Shown: in pieces, positions 7,399 through 62,875 of the stretch
Numbering within the stretch: the stretch's first letter is position 1
Layout of the letters: the number at the start of each line of letters is the position of its first letter
Virus record (IMG/VR): IMGVR_UViG_3300030106_006480
Span: 1 to 64,000 of that record
Length of the DNA stretch: 64,000 bases
DNA from: a virus
Strand: one strand, 5' to 3'
Notes under the pieces: model-generated
The model's database searches: none
Seen by the model: only the letters and a program-made list of their open reading frames with translations
What the model was told of the DNA's origin: nothing
Translations under genes and position numbers: made by a program

Positions 7399-10005
7399 TT
7401 AACGCTTTATTTGAATATTTCCATAAAAATCATAATATTTTTCTGGTGTCTTACTAACAGCTACCAATGAAGGATAGGCAGTGTAGTCTTTACCGTCAGG
7501 ATTAGTACGGGTACAAACATTAAAGAAACGCTCTGTACGTGTATCTTTTTGTGTGTAGATGTTGAGCTTTAACTCATGATAAAAAAGTTGCTTTAACAAA
7601 TAGGTAAAGCGCGATCTAGAAATCTCTTTATAGTTTGATTGCAAACAAAACTCACAGTAGTTTGGATACAGATACTTTCGTGACTCGGCATAAATTTCTG
7701 AAGTCCCTGGTGGAGTTTTAACTCGTTTACCAATAAGAGACACAGTCCCTGGAGCATAAATTAAATTATTTTCCATCCAATCCAACATAGGATTTGAATT
7801 TAAAATTTGTTCTGAATTGAACTGTGCAAAGAAAGGAGCTTTCTTTTCAGTAGACATTAAGTATTCCCTCATCTCTTGTTCTGACATATCAAGCAACCAG
7901 TTCACAAGACCAGGCAACATGTCAGCAAAGATGCCTCCAGGTTCACCTTGACGATTGAATTTGATTAATTCTTTTTGTTCCGAAGGACCACCTTCAAAAG
8001 GACGATCAAAAGGAATAGTTAAACGACGACGAGATAAACCAGTGGTGTAATCAGTAGATTGAATCGCCTCGTTGGCAGTAATCATCACAAGTCCATGATA
8101 CTGAAAAGGAGGCATAGATTCTTTTTGATACTTGCGTTCAGAACGAATCCAGTCACCACCAGTAATAGCTTTTAATTTGGAGACAGAACCACCCCAGCGA
8201 TCAGCATCCTGGAAAAGAATTAGTTTCTTATCACGAAAAGCAGAAGCTTCAAAACGACTTTCTTCTAAGTTTTTGAAATCAGTTGAATAGGTATTGTCTT
8301 TACCAACAAGAGCAACAGCAAGATTGGCATAAGTAGATTTACCAGACTTACCTGGGCCAACAATCTCTACAAATTTTTGAATATCATATCGCCCCAAAAG
8401 TGTGGCTCTTAACCAAGCACGTAGAACTTGAACACGATCATCATCATTACGTTGAATATGTTTGAACCAATTTATAATTTCATAACACTTAGCATTAGCC
8501 TCATAGTTGTAGGGTAATTGCTGAGTCATGTAATAGTCTCGGCTAAAAGGAAGAAGCTCTTTAGTGTCCACTTTTAAGACACCGTTTTTAAACAACAACA
8601 TATCGTTGCTGTCATACCAATCAGTAGACGAGAGAGAAAGTTTTAGCTGACTAAAAATATCATTGAGCAAATTGATGCCATAACCCCGAGGCAACAAATC
8701 TTTTTTAATTATCTCAATCTTATTTTTAATATCAGCTTTAGCTTCTGTTTCTGTCAAGATACTCCACAAGCCTGGAGCCTTGTGAGCATACATAAAAAAC
8801 TGATCATGAGTAATAGAAAATCGAAGATCTCCTTTATACATTTGAAGCAGCTGATCTGATACGACATCAGCAGAAGCATTTCTACCTTTCTTATCTTCAG
8901 TTTTTTGAGGTACTTGAAATAAAGAATTTACAGTTGCTTGCTGCGCTGCATTAGCCCCAGTAGGAGAAGTAAAAGATTCTACGCGTGCCCCTGCCAATGA
9001 AGTTTCGTTACATTCTTTTGACATTGTTTCTACAAGATCAATCATTTCCATATCAGGAGCATTATGTTTATGATCCTGAGAAGGAGTCCAACCATGTTCT
9101 TTTGCTCCATGAAATATAGTACCTATTCCACGTCCGCCTTCTTTTGAAAAAGAAAGCCAACGACGATGACAATCTCCATCTTTATATTTATCTGATTGTT
9201 GAGACCATTTATCCCATTCTTCTAAAAGAGACTCATCAACAGAATGAAGACATTGACCCATCATTAGCCAAGCTTCATAATTATCTGCAACTTCAGCGGG
9301 ATAAGACCACATTGCATCAATAGCTTCTTTAATTTCGCGATCTTTTGACATTAAAGAGTTGATAGCAAAAGTAGGCCCAACAATCCGGGTTGCATGTTCT
9401 TGTGGAACACCTTGCTTCATATTTTTTTTAGCAATCCCTTTCATTAACCATTCAGGGACATTAGGCAAAGAAGTTGAAAACTCATATCCCTCGTTTTCTT
9501 TTGTGTAATAACCGTTGGTTTCAGGATGAAGACCCATCAAAACGCCTTGATGCCGCTTCCAAAGAATCTCTAATTTGTCTCCTTCTGTTTCCGAATGCCA
9601 AACATATTTATTACGAGCAAAATGTTTCCATAACTCTTTAGGCACTTTGTAAAGTTTACGTTCACGCCCTGGTTTACCACTACAAATAGTTAAAGTTTTT
9701 GGAAGAGCTTTTTTAAAAGGTTTACTAGAAATTTCTTCGACGAGATTATAAACAGATTGTCCATCAATATCTACCCAAACAAAACCATAAGGGTTGTTAT
9801 AAGCAGGCCCTCCAATCAAACCAATGGCTTTACAACGACCATTTTCTAGTTCTTTTTTAATTTGATTTATATCAAAAGGTTTTTGTTGCCACCCCTGTAT
9901 ATATGGATTTTTATTTTCTCCTAATGGTGTGAGAGGCCAATCTTGACATAAATAATCAATCTTGATTTCTCCTGCAAGAAGAGATTGAGAATTCATTTCA
10001 GTCAT
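7399..10005 (-). CDS. Bifunctional primase-polymerase / SF3 (D5-like) helicase
   Basis: 868 aa. The N-terminal PrimPol (AEP) domain has the hDhD motif FVWVDIDG near residue 75-82 and the SG-basic motif ICSGKPGRERKLYKV near 107. A PriCT-2-like middle (NYEAWLMMGQCLH...WDKWSQQSDKY) follows. The C-terminal SF3 helicase has Walker A VGPGKSGKST (about residue 553), acidic KLILFQDADRW and sensor GLVMITANEAIQ. The protein should unwind DNA as a hexamer and make primers for the T7-type polymerase at 21872. The order PrimPol-PriCT-SF3 is typical of phage and plasmid replicases. Confidence 0.92.
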   Translation of the reverse strand: MTEMNSQSLLAGEIKIDYLCQDWPLTPLGENKNPYIQGWQQKPFDINQIKKELENGRCKAIGLIGGPAYNNPYGFVWVDIDGQSVYNLVEEISSKPFKKALPKTLTICSGKPGRERKLYKVPKELWKHFARNKYVWHSETEGDKLEILWKRHQGVLMGLHPETNGYYTKENEGYEFSTSLPNVPEWLMKGIAKKNMKQGVPQEHATRIVGPTFAINSLMSKDREIKEAIDAMWSYPAEVADNYEAWLMMGQCLHSVDESLLEEWDKWSQQSDKYKDGDCHRRWLSFSKEGGRGIGTIFHGAKEHGWTPSQDHKHNAPDMEMIDLVETMSKECNETSLAGARVESFTSPTGANAAQQATVNSLFQVPQKTEDKKGRNASADVVSDQLLQMYKGDLRFSITHDQFFMYAHKAPGLWSILTETEAKADIKNKIEIIKKDLLPRGYGINLLNDIFSQLKLSLSSTDWYDSNDMLLFKNGVLKVDTKELLPFSRDYYMTQQLPYNYEANAKCYEIINWFKHIQRNDDDRVQVLRAWLRATLLGRYDIQKFVEIVGPGKSGKSTYANLAVALVGKDNTYSTDFKNLEESRFEASAFRDKKLILFQDADRWGGSVSKLKAITGGDWIRSERKYQKESMPPFQYHGLVMITANEAIQSTDYTTGLSRRRLTIPFDRPFEGGPSEQKELIKFNRQGEPGGIFADMLPGLVNWLLDMSEQEMREYLMSTEKKAPFFAQFNSEQILNSNPMLDWMENNLIYAPGTVSLIGKRVKTPPGTSEIYAESRKYLYPNYCEFCLQSNYKEISRSRFTYLLKQLFYHELKLNIYTQKDTRTERFFNVCTRTNPDGKDYTAYPSLVAVSKTPEKYYDFYGNIQIKR

Positions 10006-45871: not shown

Positions 45872-47398
45872 GTGCCTTCACATCTTCATTTAGCTTATAG
45901 ACGCAACGCTCAAGCCGCTGCAAAAAAACATCGGCTTAGAAAAAGCGGTAAAGAAGAGTTATTTGAAAGGGCAAGAGAAGATTTTGGGTTTTTCTGTGAA
46001 TATGTTGCAGGCAAACCTCCTGCAGAACATCATAAGGAATGGCATCGTCAATTAGTAACAAATGAAGCTAGTTCGTGCTTATTGAAAATTGCTGGACCTA
46101 ATGTTGATTTACTTGGTCCTAGGGGATCAGCCAAATCAACTGTGCTAGGTCTTTTTACTGCTTGGGCCATTGGTATTCATACTGCAGCCAAGAAGCCCTT
46201 ACAGATTCTTTACTTGTCTTATACGGTTGATATTGCACGTTCAAAATCAGCAACAATTAAACGTATTATTGAATCAAAAAAATATCAACAAGTTTTTCCT
46301 ACAGTAAAGCTACTTAAAAATGTAACGAGTAACGAGTACTGGTCTATTGACCATAAGTTTGCTGGTATTGATACAACAGGTGAAGAACAATTCACATTGT
46401 GTGCTGCTGGCTTAAAAGGTTCGGTTACTTCAAAGCGTTCTCAACTCGTTATTATTGATGACCCTATTAAGTCAGCTACAGATATCGCGAATCCAGATAT
46501 TCGCAAAATGATGGAAGAAAATTGGAATGCAGTGATCGCTCCAACTATGTTTGAAGGGGGTAGAGCAATTTGTTTAGGCACTCGCTTTAGGCATGATGAT
46601 ATACATACGACAACGTTTTGTCCAAATAATAATTGGAATCAGATTGTTTTATCTGCAATAAAGAATAATGAAGAAACGGGAGAAGAAGAATCATACTGGC
46701 CTTCCATGTGGTCACTTGATTACTTAAAAGAAAAGAAACGACAGGCCCCTGTGGCGTTTAGTTTTCAATATATGAATCAAGTTTTAAGACAGAGTGAATT
46801 GTCTTTAGCTCCAGAGTTATTAGTCAAAGCTGAAATTGCAACTGAATTTGACACCCTTGGTATAGGTGTTGACTTATCTGCAGGAACAAAAGAAAAAAAT
46901 GACTATACCGTAATGGTTTTAGGTGGCCGTATAGGAGACAAAATTCATATCATTGATTACAGGCGACTACGTGTAATGGGTAATTTAGAGAAGTTAGATG
47001 CAATGAAAGAATTAATGAATGATTGGTCAATCATAGGAAGACAACAGGATGGTACTTATTTCCCAACGTATTCAACATGTGATGTTTGGTCTGAAGCTGT
47101 ACAATATCAAGCTTCTTTAGAAGCAGACTTTAAACGAATATGTTTAAATCAAGAAGGGCTTTATAATTTAATTTGGCATCCTGTAAAAGGATTCCGTGCT
47201 GATAAGCTTGCACGCTTCAGAGGTATTATGGGAATGTTTGAAGACCGTAAAATAGTATTTAACAGGTACAGAAATTTCACTGCAATGTTTGAAGAGCTAA
47301 CTAATTTTGGAGTTAGTAGCCATGATGACTGCGTAGATGCTTTAGTTTGGCTTGTTAATGGTCTTAGTCGCAAAGGCAAACTTCAAGTTGATTACTAA
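45872..47398 (+). CDS. terL: Terminase large subunit
   Basis: GTG start; 508 aa. ATPase: Walker A LLGPRGSAKST (80-90), Walker B LVIIDDP (192-198). Nuclease: GVDLSAG (about residue 332) and DCVDALVWLVNGLSR near the C-terminus. It packages DNA into procapsids through the portal. No obvious small terminase gene nearby. The next gene (74 aa) shares one base with it. Confidence 0.92.
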   Translation: MPSHLHLAYRRNAQAAAKKHRLRKSGKEELFERAREDFGFFCEYVAGKPPAEHHKEWHRQLVTNEASSCLLKIAGPNVDLLGPRGSAKSTVLGLFTAWAIGIHTAAKKPLQILYLSYTVDIARSKSATIKRIIESKKYQQVFPTVKLLKNVTSNEYWSIDHKFAGIDTTGEEQFTLCAAGLKGSVTSKRSQLVIIDDPIKSATDIANPDIRKMMEENWNAVIAPTMFEGGRAICLGTRFRHDDIHTTTFCPNNNWNQIVLSAIKNNEETGEEESYWPSMWSLDYLKEKKRQAPVAFSFQYMNQVLRQSELSLAPELLVKAEIATEFDTLGIGVDLSAGTKEKNDYTVMVLGGRIGDKIHIIDYRRLRVMGNLEKLDAMKELMNDWSIIGRQQDGTYFPTYSTCDVWSEAVQYQASLEADFKRICLNQEGLYNLIWHPVKGFRADKLARFRGIMGMFEDRKIVFNRYRNFTAMFEELTNFGVSSHDDCVDALVWLVNGLSRKGKLQVDY

Positions 47399-49361: not shown

Positions 49362-51686
49362 ATGTCCACCTCAAAGGCTAGGCTTAAAGAAATTATTGAC
49401 GCCTACATCGATCGCGATGGTGATGCCGGTATAGATACCGGTATTGTTGCTGGTCATTTATCACAAATGAAACTTTTTGGTATCCGCCAAGGGGTTGAAT
49501 TCTTTCCTGCACAAGATAACTTTGGTGCTCAACGCAAAGACTTTATCGATAAAGTTGTCAAATATAATCGTTTAGATACACGCCTTGATTCCATTTGGGA
49601 TTATTTTATTTGTGATGGAAAAGGCCTATATTATATTCGGCCCACAAAAACAAACTACCGTTTATATTTCTTTCGCGCTCATGAGTACCGGAGCTATTAC
49701 AACGTAGATGGTGAGCTTGAACAGGTTGTCATTATCTATAGTTACAAAGTTAAAGCACCTAGTCAGGGAATGTATCAAGGTGTCAATTTTAACGAAGTAG
49801 GTTTGAACCCCAATGAAAGTCAAGGGAAGAAAAAGTATATCCGACTTTCAATTAAAAAAGATGAGATTGAAGAGACACATTCAGATGCAGAAATGTCGTT
49901 CGATCTCCCCAAAGGACAATCTCCAGGGAAAACAACTAAGTTTGAAAATAGTATGGGATTTATTCCATGCGTAGAAATTATCAATAACGCAAAAGGTTTC
50001 TCCATGGACGGTAATGGAGATTTTGATGCATTAGCTGATCATATTGTCACCCATGACGATATGGTAAAAAATATTAGAAAAAACTTACAGTTCTTTGGTA
50101 ACCCTACTTTATTATCTTCTAGGCCAAAAACTGATTTATTAGATGTTGGCGGAGATGGCGGAGCACAACGCCCTTCTATTGCAGCTAACTCAGGCTTTGG
50201 CAGTCCAATGCCAATGAGTCGATCAACTTTCAAACAAGATCCGATTCAACGTGGAGTCGATGGTCAGCTCCGTGTACCAAGGGTTATTGCGAATTTAGAG
50301 CCAAACGATCGTGTTGGTTATATCGTTCCTGATGCTGTTAGTGGTGATCAAAACTCTATTGTCCGTCAATACCAAGAAGAAATCCGCCTTGCACTTGGTG
50401 GTGTAGATGATTCTTCTATTAGTGCTAGTGCAACTGCTACAGAGTACAAATCAATTTTTGGTCGAGTAGCAGCAACTTCGCAAAAAAAAGCTAATTCTAT
50501 TTACACTCATGGACTCTGCCGTTGTTTTGAACTAATTATATTTCAAGAAGAACAGATGTTTAAAGACTCTTTGGCAGCTGCTGCCAAGATAGAAAAACCT
50601 TTACCTTTAAAAACAGGTGCATCTGATGAAGAAATAATTTCTTATAAACAAGCAGAACAGGTCTATGAACAGCAGCTAAAACAGATTATGATGGCGTGTG
50701 TTAAAGCACAAATGATTCCCCCTGGTGTCAAAGGACTGATACCAGATGGAGACATTTCAATGCTTTGGCGCTGGATGGGGCCTGTCTATCAAGACACTAC
50801 TCAAGATATTTTGAACAACTCTATTGTTGTACGAAATCTTCAAGAGTTAGGAGTTGATAGCATAGAAGCACTGAAATATCTTTTTCCATCTAAAACTGAT
50901 GAGGAAAGAGCGGAAATGCTTTCGGGCTTCCCATTCAGGATGGTGAATGAGTTACAGGGAGCTTACTCTCAGTTTTCTCGTTTAATTGGGGGGATGATGC
51001 AGACTCCCCACCCTCAGTCACCGGATTTACCGATGGCTGCTGATCCCAGACTGGATTTAACTCCATATCTGTATCGAACTTTAGAAGCATTACAAAAGGA
51101 GATGAGTTATGCAGGACGCTACCGTCCAATCGACCCCACAGATGAGCCAAGCACCAGCGGTAGCTCCCAGCAGCTACGTGGCAGCTCCAGCTCAACAAGC
51201 ACCGGCTCAACAGAGTCCAGTGGGGACGTATTACCCTCAAGCAGTGCCGAACGTGGCACCACAGGGGACTACCAGTTACCAATCAAGCCCTACTCAGTCC
51301 GTCCCCCAATCCCAACCGGCGGGGGATCAGAACAGCCCATGGGAGTCGGCATTCAATCGAGTAGTGGGTCTTCTGGGCAGCCCGGTTCAATCCCCGTTCC
51401 AGGGTCAACCATCACAGGCCCCGGCGCAGACACCGGTTCAGTATTCCCCGGCCAATTACGGTCAGGCATCAAGCCAGACTATGCCCGCATCGGCTCCGCA
51501 GACCTCATATCCCAGCCAGGGTTACTCGGACAACTCTTCCCAAACTTACTCGGTCAGCTCGTTAGCGGACGTGGCGGACCTGGTGGGGTGGAGCCCGGAA
51601 AGCCGGATGGTGATCGAAAACTACGGGACAGAAGCTCCGGCGATTCTAAACCAGTACGCTCTAAACCTGGAAAGCGTCGTAGATAG
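49362..51686 (+). CDS. Portal protein with long C-terminal extension
   Basis: 774 aa. The core (residues 1-~575) reads as a portal: ADHIVTHDDMVKNIRKNLQF, then LEPNDRVGYIVPDAVSGDQN and ALGGVDDSSISASATATEYK with a long clip-wing helix region (MQTPHPQSPDLPMAADPRLD). From residue ~583 (base 51109) it becomes a Ser/Gly/Pro-rich, low-complexity tail ending GKRRR, encoded by the same bases as the start of the next gene in another frame. Forms the dodecameric DNA channel of the capsid and docks the terminase. The tail may be non-structured. Confidence 0.85.
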   Translation: MSTSKARLKEIIDAYIDRDGDAGIDTGIVAGHLSQMKLFGIRQGVEFFPAQDNFGAQRKDFIDKVVKYNRLDTRLDSIWDYFICDGKGLYYIRPTKTNYRLYFFRAHEYRSYYNVDGELEQVVIIYSYKVKAPSQGMYQGVNFNEVGLNPNESQGKKKYIRLSIKKDEIEETHSDAEMSFDLPKGQSPGKTTKFENSMGFIPCVEIINNAKGFSMDGNGDFDALADHIVTHDDMVKNIRKNLQFFGNPTLLSSRPKTDLLDVGGDGGAQRPSIAANSGFGSPMPMSRSTFKQDPIQRGVDGQLRVPRVIANLEPNDRVGYIVPDAVSGDQNSIVRQYQEEIRLALGGVDDSSISASATATEYKSIFGRVAATSQKKANSIYTHGLCRCFELIIFQEEQMFKDSLAAAAKIEKPLPLKTGASDEEIISYKQAEQVYEQQLKQIMMACVKAQMIPPGVKGLIPDGDISMLWRWMGPVYQDTTQDILNNSIVVRNLQELGVDSIEALKYLFPSKTDEERAEMLSGFPFRMVNELQGAYSQFSRLIGGMMQTPHPQSPDLPMAADPRLDLTPYLYRTLEALQKEMSYAGRYRPIDPTDEPSTSGSSQQLRGSSSSTSTGSTESSGDVLPSSSAERGTTGDYQLPIKPYSVRPPIPTGGGSEQPMGVGIQSSSGSSGQPGSIPVPGSTITGPGADTGSVFPGQLRSGIKPDYARIGSADLISQPGLLGQLFPNLLGQLVSGRGGPGGVEPGKPDGDRKLRDRSSGDSKPVRSKPGKRRR

Positions 51687-52089
51687 TGCTGTTGCTTGGG
51701 CTGACAGTGCATTAGAGACTCTGCAAGGTTATGCAGAATTTGCTGTTAATGAGCACCAAGAGAATCTCACTTATAACGAGATGCTCACCAACCCCGACAT
51801 TCTGTCTGATTACACACTGGAATTCTTTGGTCCTAATGGTCCTTATCCTGTGTATGAAAATGAGCAGCAATTAGAAACAGTTGGACATCCGACTGCACCT
51901 GCTCAACAGACTGGCTATCAGAATATTCCTGGTATGCCTGCTCCTCCTGCAGCGGCTGCTCCTGAGCAACCTGCAGATTTCTGGGGTTCCTTTAAGGCAC
52001 AAATGGATCGTGATCCCAGCCAAGCTTGGCGTCTTGTGAACCAAGCCTCACCTCAAGCGATGGCTAATAAGCTCTTCGTTATGGAGTGA
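51109..52089 (+). CDS. Scaffold-like protein overlapping the portal ORF (326 aa)
   Basis: ATG at 51109 follows a good ribosome site (AAAGGAGATGAGTT). The first ~193 residues are Pro/Gln/Ser rich, the last ~130 contain helical, charged segments (VIENYGTEAPAILNQYALNL, SFKAQMDRDPSQAWRLVNQA). The position between portal and capsid fits a scaffolding protein, which is usually helical and disordered. 578 bases are shared with the portal frame. Overlap is discussed in findings. Confidence 0.75.
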   Translation: MQDATVQSTPQMSQAPAVAPSSYVAAPAQQAPAQQSPVGTYYPQAVPNVAPQGTTSYQSSPTQSVPQSQPAGDQNSPWESAFNRVVGLLGSPVQSPFQGQPSQAPAQTPVQYSPANYGQASSQTMPASAPQTSYPSQGYSDNSSQTYSVSSLADVADLVGWSPESRMVIENYGTEAPAILNQYALNLESVVDSAVAWADSALETLQGYAEFAVNEHQENLTYNEMLTNPDILSDYTLEFFGPNGPYPVYENEQQLETVGHPTAPAQQTGYQNIPGMPAPPAAAAPEQPADFWGSFKAQMDRDPSQAWRLVNQASPQAMANKLFVME

Positions 52090-52092
52090 TAA

Positions 52093-52635
52093 ATGAATGC
52101 ACAATTTCTTAGGTATGCAATACCGGCTGCTCTTGGCGCAGGAGCTGGTTTAACCAAAGGATACCAAGAAGGCGGTGTGGGTGGTGCCCTAGGTGGTGCC
52201 GCCCTTGGCGCTGGATTGGGTGCTGCAGGTATGGGTTTAGCTCGTGCAAGTTTTAGTCAATCAGGTCCTTTAGCTGGAAAGTTTGTGGGATTGATTGATG
52301 ATGCAGGTAGCATGGTAGGTAAAGGTGCAAGAAAAGCATCTGAAGCTTTGAATAAAGCTGGTGCAGGAAATGCAGCATCCTTAGCAGATGATTTAGCAAA
52401 TCTTGTAACACCACAATACGGATCTCGCACTGCAGGTGAAGCTTTGCAACGACAAAGGCAAATCACTAATGTTGGTTCAACAGCTCTTGGTTCCCTTGGA
52501 GCTTTAGGAGGTGCTGGACTAACTAAAGGAATTATTGGAGCAATGAATCCTGCGATTGATCCAGAAATACCTGGTTCAAGTAACACCCAAGGTGCTCGTA
52601 TGAGTATGCAAGCTTATCCCGGTATGTATGCCTAA
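52093..52635 (+). CDS. Unknown virion protein with glycine zipper (180 aa)
   Basis: MNAQFLRYAIPAALGAGAGL; YQEGGVGGALGGAALGAGLG AAGMGLA (Gly/Ala zipper, residues ~20-45), then helical soluble part. As in the other zipper proteins, it may cross or form a channel. Placed directly before the capsid gene. Confidence 0.6.
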   Translation: MNAQFLRYAIPAALGAGAGLTKGYQEGGVGGALGGAALGAGLGAAGMGLARASFSQSGPLAGKFVGLIDDAGSMVGKGARKASEALNKAGAGNAASLADDLANLVTPQYGSRTAGEALQRQRQITNVGSTALGSLGALGGAGLTKGIIGAMNPAIDPEIPGSSNTQGARMSMQAYPGMYA

Positions 52636-52729: not shown

Positions 52730-53893
52730 GTGTTTTTAGATACCGACTTTCCAAAAATTCTGGGTGCGGAACTGTATCGTCCCCACCCTGCTTATGTGTG
52801 CGAAATGGCCGTTGAGCCTGTAGTTGTTCACGACTTCACCTCTCAACCTGGCCAAACCGTACAGCTTGATCGTTATAAGTTCTGGGGAACCCCAGGTACT
52901 AAGGACAGCCGTGAGCGCGTGGCTGACCAAACGATTGGTACTGCTAATAGCCGTAACATCACCAAAGAGAAGGTGTTGGTTGTGCTTAAAGAGTACACCG
53001 GTCCTGCGGATCCGGGTGACCCTACTCAGCCTTCAACCTTTAAGATTGCCCGTGAAACTCTGATCACTGCTCAGCGTCTGCTTCTTGATACAGGCAACCT
53101 GAACATGTTCCACCAGAGCATTGGTTCTCTGACCCTGTTGGATGACTACCGCCGTTGGCGTGATCGCGTCTTCATTGACGAACTTTCTAAAGCTGAAGCA
53201 AATGGTGCTGCTTCAACTTCTCAAGGTGGTTATTTCTTTGCTGGCAGCAAAACCAAAGATGCTTCCGGTCGTATTTCTTATACCGCTGCTGAGTATGGTG
53301 ATCAAATTCAACAGTTCTCTGTTCGCACTGACCTGCTGAATGTTGTGAAGGACATGCGTAAGCGCAACGTCCCCACTTTTGCTGATGGTTTGTATCGCTG
53401 TATCTGCGATCCCACCTTCATGCTGCACCTGCGTCGTGACTCCGACTTCCGTGAGATTGCACGTTACAGCGGCAATCCTGGTCAGGGCATGTACATGGGT
53501 AACCCCATGATGCCTAACAACTCCAGCTTCTTCATGGGTCCCCAAGCTGGTCAGGGTTATTTCCTGGCTGGTGAGCCTGTGATGCCTACTGGTGTGCAAT
53601 TTGAAGGCGTTAAGTTCTTCGAGTCAACCAACTTCCCGAGCAAGAATATCACTACCTCTTTCGATGCTGGTTCAACCTATGCTTCTAAGGAAGTCGCTCA
53701 AGGCTTCTTCTTCGGTCCTCAGTCAATCGGTGTTGGCATCGGTGGCCCGAATGCTCAAGTCCTGATTAACAATAATGATGACTTCTCACGCTTCATTATT
53801 CTTATCTGGCAACTGTATGCTGGTTTTGAGATTCTGAATAAGGACTTCGTGACCACTGCCTTTAGCTACGTCCAAGACGACGGTAGTGTTTGA
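52730..53893 (+). CDS. Major capsid protein
   Basis: GTG start with Shine-Dalgarno GGAGG (TGGAGGATAACAACAA). 387 aa, starts MFLDTDFPKILGAELYRPHP; FTSQPGQTVQLDRYKFWG and IARETLITAQRLLLDTGNLN (long helix) and FVRIILIWQLYAGFEILNKD-like end. Soluble, no membrane helix, flanked by scaffold-like and decoration genes. Codon choice shifts to C/G-ending codons here, a sign of high expression. I match it to phage capsids with the N4 gp56/HK97-like style, by position and composition. Confidence 0.82.
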   Translation: MFLDTDFPKILGAELYRPHPAYVCEMAVEPVVVHDFTSQPGQTVQLDRYKFWGTPGTKDSRERVADQTIGTANSRNITKEKVLVVLKEYTGPADPGDPTQPSTFKIARETLITAQRLLLDTGNLNMFHQSIGSLTLLDDYRRWRDRVFIDELSKAEANGAASTSQGGYFFAGSKTKDASGRISYTAAEYGDQIQQFSVRTDLLNVVKDMRKRNVPTFADGLYRCICDPTFMLHLRRDSDFREIARYSGNPGQGMYMGNPMMPNNSSFFMGPQAGQGYFLAGEPVMPTGVQFEGVKFFESTNFPSKNITTSFDAGSTYASKEVAQGFFFGPQSIGVGIGGPNAQVLINNNDDFSRFIILIWQLYAGFEILNKDFVTTAFSYVQDDGSV

Positions 53894-60833: not shown

Positions 60834-62875
60834 TGGCTGCTCTAACTAGTCTTAATTTTGGAAAACTTTCTGAAGAAGAAGCTCAGCAATTATTAAATCA
60901 ATTTATTCATGGAGGAGCGTTAACCAGCCTGGTCCAGGAACAAACTGACCCTGAGAAAGAAGAAGCTTTCAGAGTACTTGCTGCTAATGTCCTTAAGAGA
61001 ACAACAGAGAAACTAACACAAGAACAGAGGAAGCATCAAGGACTTCAGATGATGTTAGATATGCCTGGTTATTCTGACGTTGTTAATCAAAGTGCTGATA
61101 TTACCCAACAACTTTTAGGAGACACAGGGGTTGGAGGATACTTAAAAATGGCGGGAATGGGAGACCTGGAGAAAAAATTTAAATCAAGTATAGATAAAAG
61201 CTTAGGATTAGGAAACAATGTAATTGTAAATTGGCAAAACTGGTTTGAAGAAGAATTAGAAGATGAATATTTAAAAGACTTTGATAAATTTGAATCATTA
61301 GAAGAAAGAAAAGATTTAATTGGGATTATTAAACGTGCAAACGATAGAGGAGCATCTTTATGGAATCTTGATTTAGATAAACTAGGTGATCCAGACTATA
61401 AGCCTGAATTAACAGAAGCCTTTTTAAATGCAGCTGGTTTTGATAATCAAGAAGAGTTTATAGAATCTTTAGATAAAAATTTATTAAAAGGTGAACTTAC
61501 TGAAGAAGAAATAGAAAAATTAGATAAAACAGATATTAGAGATTTTAAAAGATTGATGGCAGATCAATTGTATTCAAAATATACAGCTGCTATTGAGAAA
61601 AGAAATCAAAACTTAGGTCCCGATGAAACTCCTGTGCAAGCTATGGCATTGCAAGAATTTCTCCAACAAAATTTTCCAACAGCTATAGGACAAAATGAAG
61701 ACGGAACGGATTATGTCATTGGCAGTCCTAATATAGATATAGAAGGATTACAAAATCAAATTAATGAAAAGATCACAAAGTTAGAAGAAGAGTTAGGCAG
61801 TGAAAGTTATCAGATTGAATACAATGGAAAAGAATACACATTTGATCCAGAGTTTACAAGAAATTTTATAGCTGATTATTTAAGGCCACGTTTTGATCAT
61901 TCAAAGTCAATGGCAGAATTTGTAGAATATTTAGGTAATGAAGATACAGGAGAAAATCTTTTAACTACTCAAACAGTATCTACAGCTTTAAAAGAGTACG
62001 GAGAAAAGATGGCGCAAACATATATTGATTATCTACAAACGGAGGGTTCAGAAGAAGGTGCTGCTTTTACACTAGAAGAATTGAAAAACCAAATTCAACA
62101 AGATTTACTCGACAGAGTTAAAGAAGATAAACAAGGTTTTTCGGGTAACGTCTTTATGAATTTTGTGGGACCAGATAAATATGTAGACCTTGTTTTAGAT
62201 AAACTAGGAGTTAAAGATCCAACAAGTGAAGAAGGACAAGAAGCTTTAAAAGAGATGGGGCTATCTGGTGAAGGAAGTTTAGATGACTTAAAAAATACTT
62301 TAAAAGAACAATTGACAGGTTTAGATGCATATGAAATAAGAGAAAAAATTAAAAAGCTTGTAAAAGAAGGTAAAGTGCCTGCTCAAATGGCTTTAGGTGT
62401 TGAATATATTCAAAGAGAAGGAGACAAAGATTTTGGCAAAGAAAAACAAGATGAAACTCAAAATGCTATTTATGAAATGTTTAAAGAATCAGGATATCAA
62501 GGAGACGCAGAAGACTTATTTAATGAAGAGTTTATGGAAGGATTTGATTCAAATTTTTTAAGTCAAGGTCTTTCAGGTGAGTTTAAATTAGACACATCAA
62601 GCCCAGGAGGAATGTTGGCTTCCACTCAAAATTTAATGGGAAGTTTGGGAAATGATGATGACCTTTATAATGTAAGTAAAGCAAATAAAACTCAAGACAT
62701 TGCCAATTATTACAAAACATTTGGCAAAGATAGAAACAAATCCAAAGCTAATGATTTCCTGGGAGGCGATGATTTAATGAATGAAATATCAGGATTAGCA
62801 GGATTTGCTGGAATAGATCTGAGTTCTGGAACAGGAACAGGGTTTGGTAACTTTGGTCAGGCAGGTTACTTCTAA
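60833..62875 (+). CDS. Large acidic helical protein, probable internal virion protein (680 aa)
   Basis: MAALTSLNFGKLSEEEAQQL. Nearly all helical, many Glu/Lys (EEELEDEYLKDFDKFESLEE, EITEEEIEKLDKTDIRDF-like) and Asn/Gly near the C-terminus (GIDLSSGTGTGFGNFGQAGYF). No motif. Could be a short tape-measure or core protein; no long tape-measure exists elsewhere. Confidence in function low. Confidence 0.6.
   Translation: MAALTSLNFGKLSEEEAQQLLNQFIHGGALTSLVQEQTDPEKEEAFRVLAANVLKRTTEKLTQEQRKHQGLQMMLDMPGYSDVVNQSADITQQLLGDTGVGGYLKMAGMGDLEKKFKSSIDKSLGLGNNVIVNWQNWFEEELEDEYLKDFDKFESLEERKDLIGIIKRANDRGASLWNLDLDKLGDPDYKPELTEAFLNAAGFDNQEEFIESLDKNLLKGELTEEEIEKLDKTDIRDFKRLMADQLYSKYTAAIEKRNQNLGPDETPVQAMALQEFLQQNFPTAIGQNEDGTDYVIGSPNIDIEGLQNQINEKITKLEEELGSESYQIEYNGKEYTFDPEFTRNFIADYLRPRFDHSKSMAEFVEYLGNEDTGENLLTTQTVSTALKEYGEKMAQTYIDYLQTEGSEEGAAFTLEELKNQIQQDLLDRVKEDKQGFSGNVFMNFVGPDKYVDLVLDKLGVKDPTSEEGQEALKEMGLSGEGSLDDLKNTLKEQLTGLDAYEIREKIKKLVKEGKVPAQMALGVEYIQREGDKDFGKEKQDETQNAIYEMFKESGYQGDAEDLFNEEFMEGFDSNFLSQGLSGEFKLDTSSPGGMLASTQNLMGSLGNDDDLYNVSKANKTQDIANYYKTFGKDRNKSKANDFLGGDDLMNEISGLAGFAGIDLSSGTGTGFGNFGQAGYF

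Follow-up and report, generated by a model that had tools for sequence, protein, structure and literature searches.

Out-of-frame overlap of the portal gene and a scaffold-like gene maintained across a lineage of cyanobacterial viruses

Here, a 578-nt stretch of a phage head-gene module is described in which the end of the portal gene and the beginning of the next, scaffold-like, gene occupy the same DNA in different frames. The overprinting that had been predicted is borne out by lineage-wide conservation and by purifying selection in each of the two frames, measured against matched controls. Sequence comparison makes it very likely that this is a genuine out-of-frame overlap, encoding two independently initiated head proteins whose overprinted tails are mostly disordered.

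The window analysed is a 64,000-nt stretch, positions 1 to 64,000 of the 74,142-base virus record IMGVR_UViG_3300030106_006480, and it carries the gene order large terminase (TerL), portal, scaffold-like gene, major capsid protein (MCP). Both overlapping open reading frames (ORFs) exist as originally described, and the G/C counts given with them, 34 for positions 51181-51240 and 26 for 50881-50940, are exact; GC is ~0.59-0.60 in the overlap vs 0.40 in the portal core. The genes and their subdivisions are:

45872-47398, plus strand: large terminase, TerL (context; phrog_38, E 9e-77; PF17289)
49362-51686, plus strand: portal protein ORF, 774 aa, C-terminal end GKRRR (phrog_20475, phrog_64 and Foldseek matches)
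49362-51108, plus strand: single-coding portal core, residues 1-582 (core dN/dS ~0.06)
51109-51686, plus strand: dual-coding overlap, 578 nt, portal tail in frame 0 and N-terminal part of the scaffold-like protein in frame +1
51109-52089, plus strand: scaffold-like ORF, 326 aa, pI 4.05, invariant ATG
52730-53893, plus strand: major capsid protein, MCP (context; phrog_1357 major head protein, E 2e-14)

Of the two gene identities originally proposed, that of the first ORF as a phage portal protein is well supported, as support rather than proof, by profile and structural similarity. The ORF matches phrog_20475 (virion structural protein) with an E-value of 1e-263, and a match to phrog_64 (portal protein) is found in 51 of 56 relatives, the best with an E-value of 2.5e-5. 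All 22 of the best Foldseek PDB matches are phage portals or tail complexes that contain a portal (best E 7e-5), with low TM-scores and from a predicted model of low confidence (pLDDT 43); the alignments for the structure models comprised the window and IMG/VR rows, with the GenBank row left out. The gene also stands where a portal gene is expected, beside the terminase and upstream of the scaffold-like and MCP genes. Chain length among the matched portals is 392-564 aa, and here ~190 residues are added beyond the 582-aa core.

The scaffold identity, by contrast with that of the portal, is drawn from position and physical properties. The gene lies between portal and MCP genes and its product is acidic throughout the family (pI 4.05-4.88), close in size to T7 gp9 (326 vs 307 aa), with an N-terminal part inside the overlap that is predicted to be disordered and a C-terminal part outside it predicted to form long helices. 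These features suggest a scaffold and argue against the reading that accepts the overlap but takes the second protein for another head component, for example an internal or minor capsid protein. That reading is unlikely though far from negligible, given that no match was found for the protein in PHROG, Pfam, PDB structures or T7 gp9, and hence no resemblance to a known scaffold in sequence or fold. A further ORF (52093-52635), between the scaffold-like and MCP genes, encodes a Gly/Ala-rich 180-aa protein with glycine-zipper-like stretches and no family match.

Among isolates, Synechococcus phage S-EIV1 (KJ410740) alone is close, its scaffold-like protein being 59%, its portal 66% and its MCP 84% identical to those of the window; tblastn with these three proteins against 50,697 phages returned S-EIV1 alone at meaningful E-values. 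The module was, meanwhile, found on hundreds of IMG/VR contigs. Portal core and scaffold C-domain were present in 369 loci, and 368 of these, from IMG/VR, S-EIV1 and one MAG, were usable in that they also held start and stop; some of the 368 are overlapping extracts of one contig and a distinct count, 232 overlap sequences, is therefore also used, among which portal identity falls to 70%. S-EIV1 has the same gene order as the window and an overlap of 554 nt, and its portal is annotated at full length (767 aa). It differs in that its GenBank record cuts the scaffold-like gene to a 133-aa C-terminal remainder starting after the portal stop, whereas the frame is 325 aa long and starts inside the portal gene. 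Two further features of that genome were observed. The S-EIV1 MCP (60859-62007, plus strand; 7498-8724 of the S-EIV1 locus, L152) is represented in the record by one minus-strand gene and a shorter gene on the plus strand, and so looks misannotated. In the S-EIV1 large terminase (L152 794-3334), residue ~199 is followed by ~330 inserted residues, in frame, that begin CLVGDTMVLT and end HNFIANGFNVLNC; this insertion looks like an intein and is absent from the window's terminase.

The scaffold-like frame has its own initiation signals, and these, together with a further conserved element that may have another role, are located in the portal codons that precede the overlap:

51066-51074, plus strand: TATCTGTAT (portal Tyr-Leu-Tyr), nearly synonymously frozen in 173-194 relatives, ~40 nt upstream of the scaffold-like ATG
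51095-51101, plus strand: Shine-Dalgarno (SD) sequence AAAGGAG, inside portal codons Gln-Lys-Glu, with zero entropy at the synonymous positions of CAA AAG GAG
51103-51105, plus strand: TGA in the scaffold-like frame, 6 nt upstream of its ATG, present in 235 of 236 distinct sequences

The ribosome-binding site is spaced from the ATG at 51109 by the 7 nt ATGAGTT, exactly as originally described. AAGGAG and the scaffold-like ATG are each invariant in 232 of 232 distinct sequences; a pattern scan used in the search was keyed on the DNA around the internal start, and members lacking that site escape such a scan. Across 173-194 distinct sequences, portal third codon positions are free upstream but wholly fixed in CAA AAG GAG ATG.

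These signals bear directly on the possibility that programmed +1 frameshifting yields a portal-scaffold fusion as the main or an extra product. Programmed frameshifts do occur in phage head and tail genes, as in T7 10A/10B and lambda G/GT (the T7 record annotates 10A/10B), and the +1 geometry would permit a slip anywhere in the overlap. In a programmed frameshift, however, the second frame lacks a start of its own and is joined via a slippery site, whereas here it possesses an SD and an ATG, and any ribosome that slipped ahead of the overlap would be stopped by the TGA just upstream. Together the invariant SD, the ATG and the upstream TGA favour independent initiation over fusion. That the portal frame is constrained over five-sixths of the overlap, as described below, further implies that most ribosomes must stay in frame 0, and no unusual RNA structure was found at the internal start (z -0.2), making a frameshift fusion very unlikely.

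The frozen TATCTGTAT could possibly be a promoter or another signal, judging from its conservation. As a promoter it was not accepted: with one mismatch allowed it occurs often in the window (42 matches vs 19 expected) and shows no obvious gene-start placement. Low synonymous diversity was also seen at portal codons 496-504 (LGVDSIEAL, 50847-50873), where a second frame is not known.

Selection was measured, as originally proposed, by analysing rates in each frame across relatives, with substitutions assigned to four classes (non-synonymous or synonymous in each frame) over 101 disjoint pairs. Constraint was found in both frames of the overlap, the scaffold-frame ratio being 0.228 (0.205-0.247) and that of the portal frame 0.519 (0.460-0.568), and a smaller set of 42 pairs agrees with both. 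Because the geometry of overlapping frames biases such ratios, fake frames of equal offset were tested in single-coding DNA; they gave 1.61 in the single-coding scaffold region and 1.83 in the portal core, and the unused third frame of the overlap itself gave 1.15. The portal ratio lies far below the fake frames and the portal frame is thus strongly constrained within the overlap. By successive sixths of the overlap, the portal ratio is 0.33, 0.45, 0.52, 0.47, 0.33 and 1.49, and the scaffold ratio 0.13, 0.16, 0.18, 0.30, 0.31 and 0.24. A change in codon-position rates points the same way. In pairs 85-93% identical, differences at codon positions 1, 2 and 3 of the single-coding scaffold region are 0.075, 0.044 and 0.332, and at the same scaffold positions in the overlap they are 0.045, 0.084 and 0.149, so that the rate at position 3 is halved and position 1 of the scaffold frame, corresponding to position 2 of the portal frame, now changes least. 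This flip is as dual coding predicts.

The same measurements weigh against the reading that one frame alone is translated and the other is open by chance, or because stops are few in GC-rich coding for Ser, Pro, Gln and Ala. The high GC of the overlap (~0.60) lends this some plausibility, and when the overlap's own codons were permuted the portal frame remained open fairly often (median p 0.015 per genome). A harsher null, with the scaffold protein fixed and phage codon usage applied, gives an expected open portal frame of ~39 codons on average vs 190 observed, and with the scaffold protein fixed the observed length was reached in none of 1000 draws in each of 64 representatives. Such single-genome chance tests are far weaker than the tests of conservation and selection. 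A portal ratio of 0.52 against fake frames of 1.6-1.8, a scaffold ratio of 0.23 alongside the unvarying SD and ATG, and the presence of conserved motifs in each frame leave translation of one frame only extremely unlikely. Three features within the overlap are relevant here:

51337-51378, plus strand: conserved helix SPWESAFN.VV.LL, scaffold-like residues 77-90, inside the overlap
51489-51566, plus strand: portal-tail motif IGSADL..QP.LL.QLFPNLL, residues ~710-735, with short predicted helices and a portal ratio of 0.33 in that sixth
51591-51686, plus strand: final sixth of the portal tail, whose portal ratio of 1.49 (1.12-1.98) matches that of the fake-frame control and whose stop position varies among relatives

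The last sixth (~95 nt) looks like unconstrained run-off. It includes the GKRRR ending that had been remarked upon, and this is present in the sequence, but the terminal basic stretch is not conserved residue by residue. These last ~95 nt are nevertheless more basic than the scaffold protein forces them to be (mean net charge +6.6 vs +3.6, sd 2.3), and selection on charge is possible there.

All 368 usable loci, identified by their similarity, in most cases to the window or S-EIV1, retain the overlap in the same +1 frame at a length of 497-662 nt (median 593), and the overlap length modulo 3 is 2 in 236 of 236 distinct sequences. A portal ending near 51.1 kb at the scaffold-like start, the observation that the original prediction named as telling against itself, was seen in none of the relatives examined. 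One locus (IMGVR_UViG_3300049043_000250) was set aside as an exception since it is indel-ridden, with frameshifts in its portal, scaffold-like and MCP genes that are probably sequencing errors. Although this shows that such errors exist in the collection, the idea that a sequencing or assembly frameshift conceals either a portal ending near 51.1 kb or one fused gene is already refuted, and has next to no probability, because the overlap recurs in independent metagenomes, S-EIV1 and a MAG with its length modulo 3 constant and both frames under selection. Frameshifting, by error or by programme, had been put forward as the main alternative; recurrence in 368 loci, the invariant SD and ATG and the upstream TGA speak against it.

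That one frame evolved inside the other was also proposed; overprinting itself is supported, and its direction receives contradictory signals. Codon usage is less deviant in the portal frame than in the scaffold frame in 57 of 57 comparisons, which suggests that the portal tail is not the newcomer. The lengths of the matched portals (392-564 aa), the varying stop and the weaker constraint suggest that it is. No claim on polarity is made here because these lines contradict each other. No outgroup with homologous portal and scaffold-like genes was found among the 50,697 phages or among the matches listed in a TerL search, which reached other phages at only ~25% identity. In Microcystis phage Mae-Yong1326-1, which had the best TerL score among the matches listed, the portal and the next gene are 67 nt apart without overlap, and neither aligns to the window's genes.

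In the model proposed for the genuine overlap, one late mRNA would encode the 774-aa portal in frame 0, and a second ribosome-binding site, within the portal codons Gln-Lys-Glu, would start the acidic 326-aa scaffold-like protein in the +1 frame, its translation beginning 575 nt before the portal stop. The two proteins would be made separately, and the internal SD may permit an amount of scaffold-like protein different from that of the portal on the same message. The portal core (~582 aa) would form the ring, and the ~160 constrained residues of the tail a flexible arm, probably reaching into the procapsid and ending in the short conserved helix IGSADL..QLFPNLL. The scaffold-like protein would have a disordered N-terminal arm, in which SPWESAFN.VV.LL is the one conserved helix, and a helical C-terminal domain that may serve self-assembly and coat binding. 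Overprinting could be tolerable for both arms, since each is of low complexity and the key motif of one lies on a different stretch of the shared DNA from that of the other.

Partial parallels exist in well-studied phages. T7 genes 8 (portal), 9 (scaffold) and 10 (capsid) have the same functional order, although 99 nt lie between genes 8 and 9, the T7 portal is 536 aa vs 774 aa here, and no sequence similarity between T7 and window proteins is detectable. The lambda scaffold Nu3 is encoded in frame inside gene C (protease) from its own internal start; as here, a scaffold gene shares DNA with an upstream head gene through internal initiation, but the lambda overlap is in frame with shared protein sequence, whereas here the frames differ. 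The lambda spanin genes Rz/Rz1, one lying in the +1 frame of the other, are known in embedded, overlapped and separated forms (PMC6139136). They too are a +1-frame pair of a dsDNA phage, with products that act together, but they are shorter lysis genes, while the present pair belongs to head assembly and overlaps partially, and a separated form was not found. In a survey of viruses, +1 same-strand overlaps had a median of 14 nt and an interquartile range of 8-26 (PMC8903798); the 578 nt found here are far longer than such usual overlaps of a few bases. That a long dual-coding overlap is unusual in a capsid gene set had been surmised. Two other same-strand overlapping ORF pairs were noted in the window, both on the minus strand (21872-23683/23002-23430, 429 nt; 32129-32500/32221-32586, 280 nt). 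In the literature searched, a long out-of-frame portal-scaffold overlap fixed in a lineage is not described, and an earlier mention in the S-EIV1 genome paper is possible.

Dual coding of ~580 nt in essential head genes is thus found in dsDNA phages with genomes of ~75-90 kb, where it has been kept by an entire, widespread lineage of cyanobacterial viruses. Standard gene callers restrict such overlaps, so the scaffold-like protein is truncated in the S-EIV1 record and probably in many metagenomic annotations, an error that can be corrected now. The module also provides a clean natural case of two assembly partners sharing DNA, with hundreds of sequences available for constraint tests. More tentatively, the portal may have gained its C-terminal arm by extending into frame space that belonged to its scaffold gene, and both arms may now cooperate, for example by docking of the portal-tail helix on the scaffold, a doubtful but conceivable scenario. 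If true, the portal tail and the scaffold N-terminus would evolve only jointly across the whole phage lineage, and the arrangement would parallel lambda C/Nu3, though out of frame, and be fixed in a major cyanophage group.
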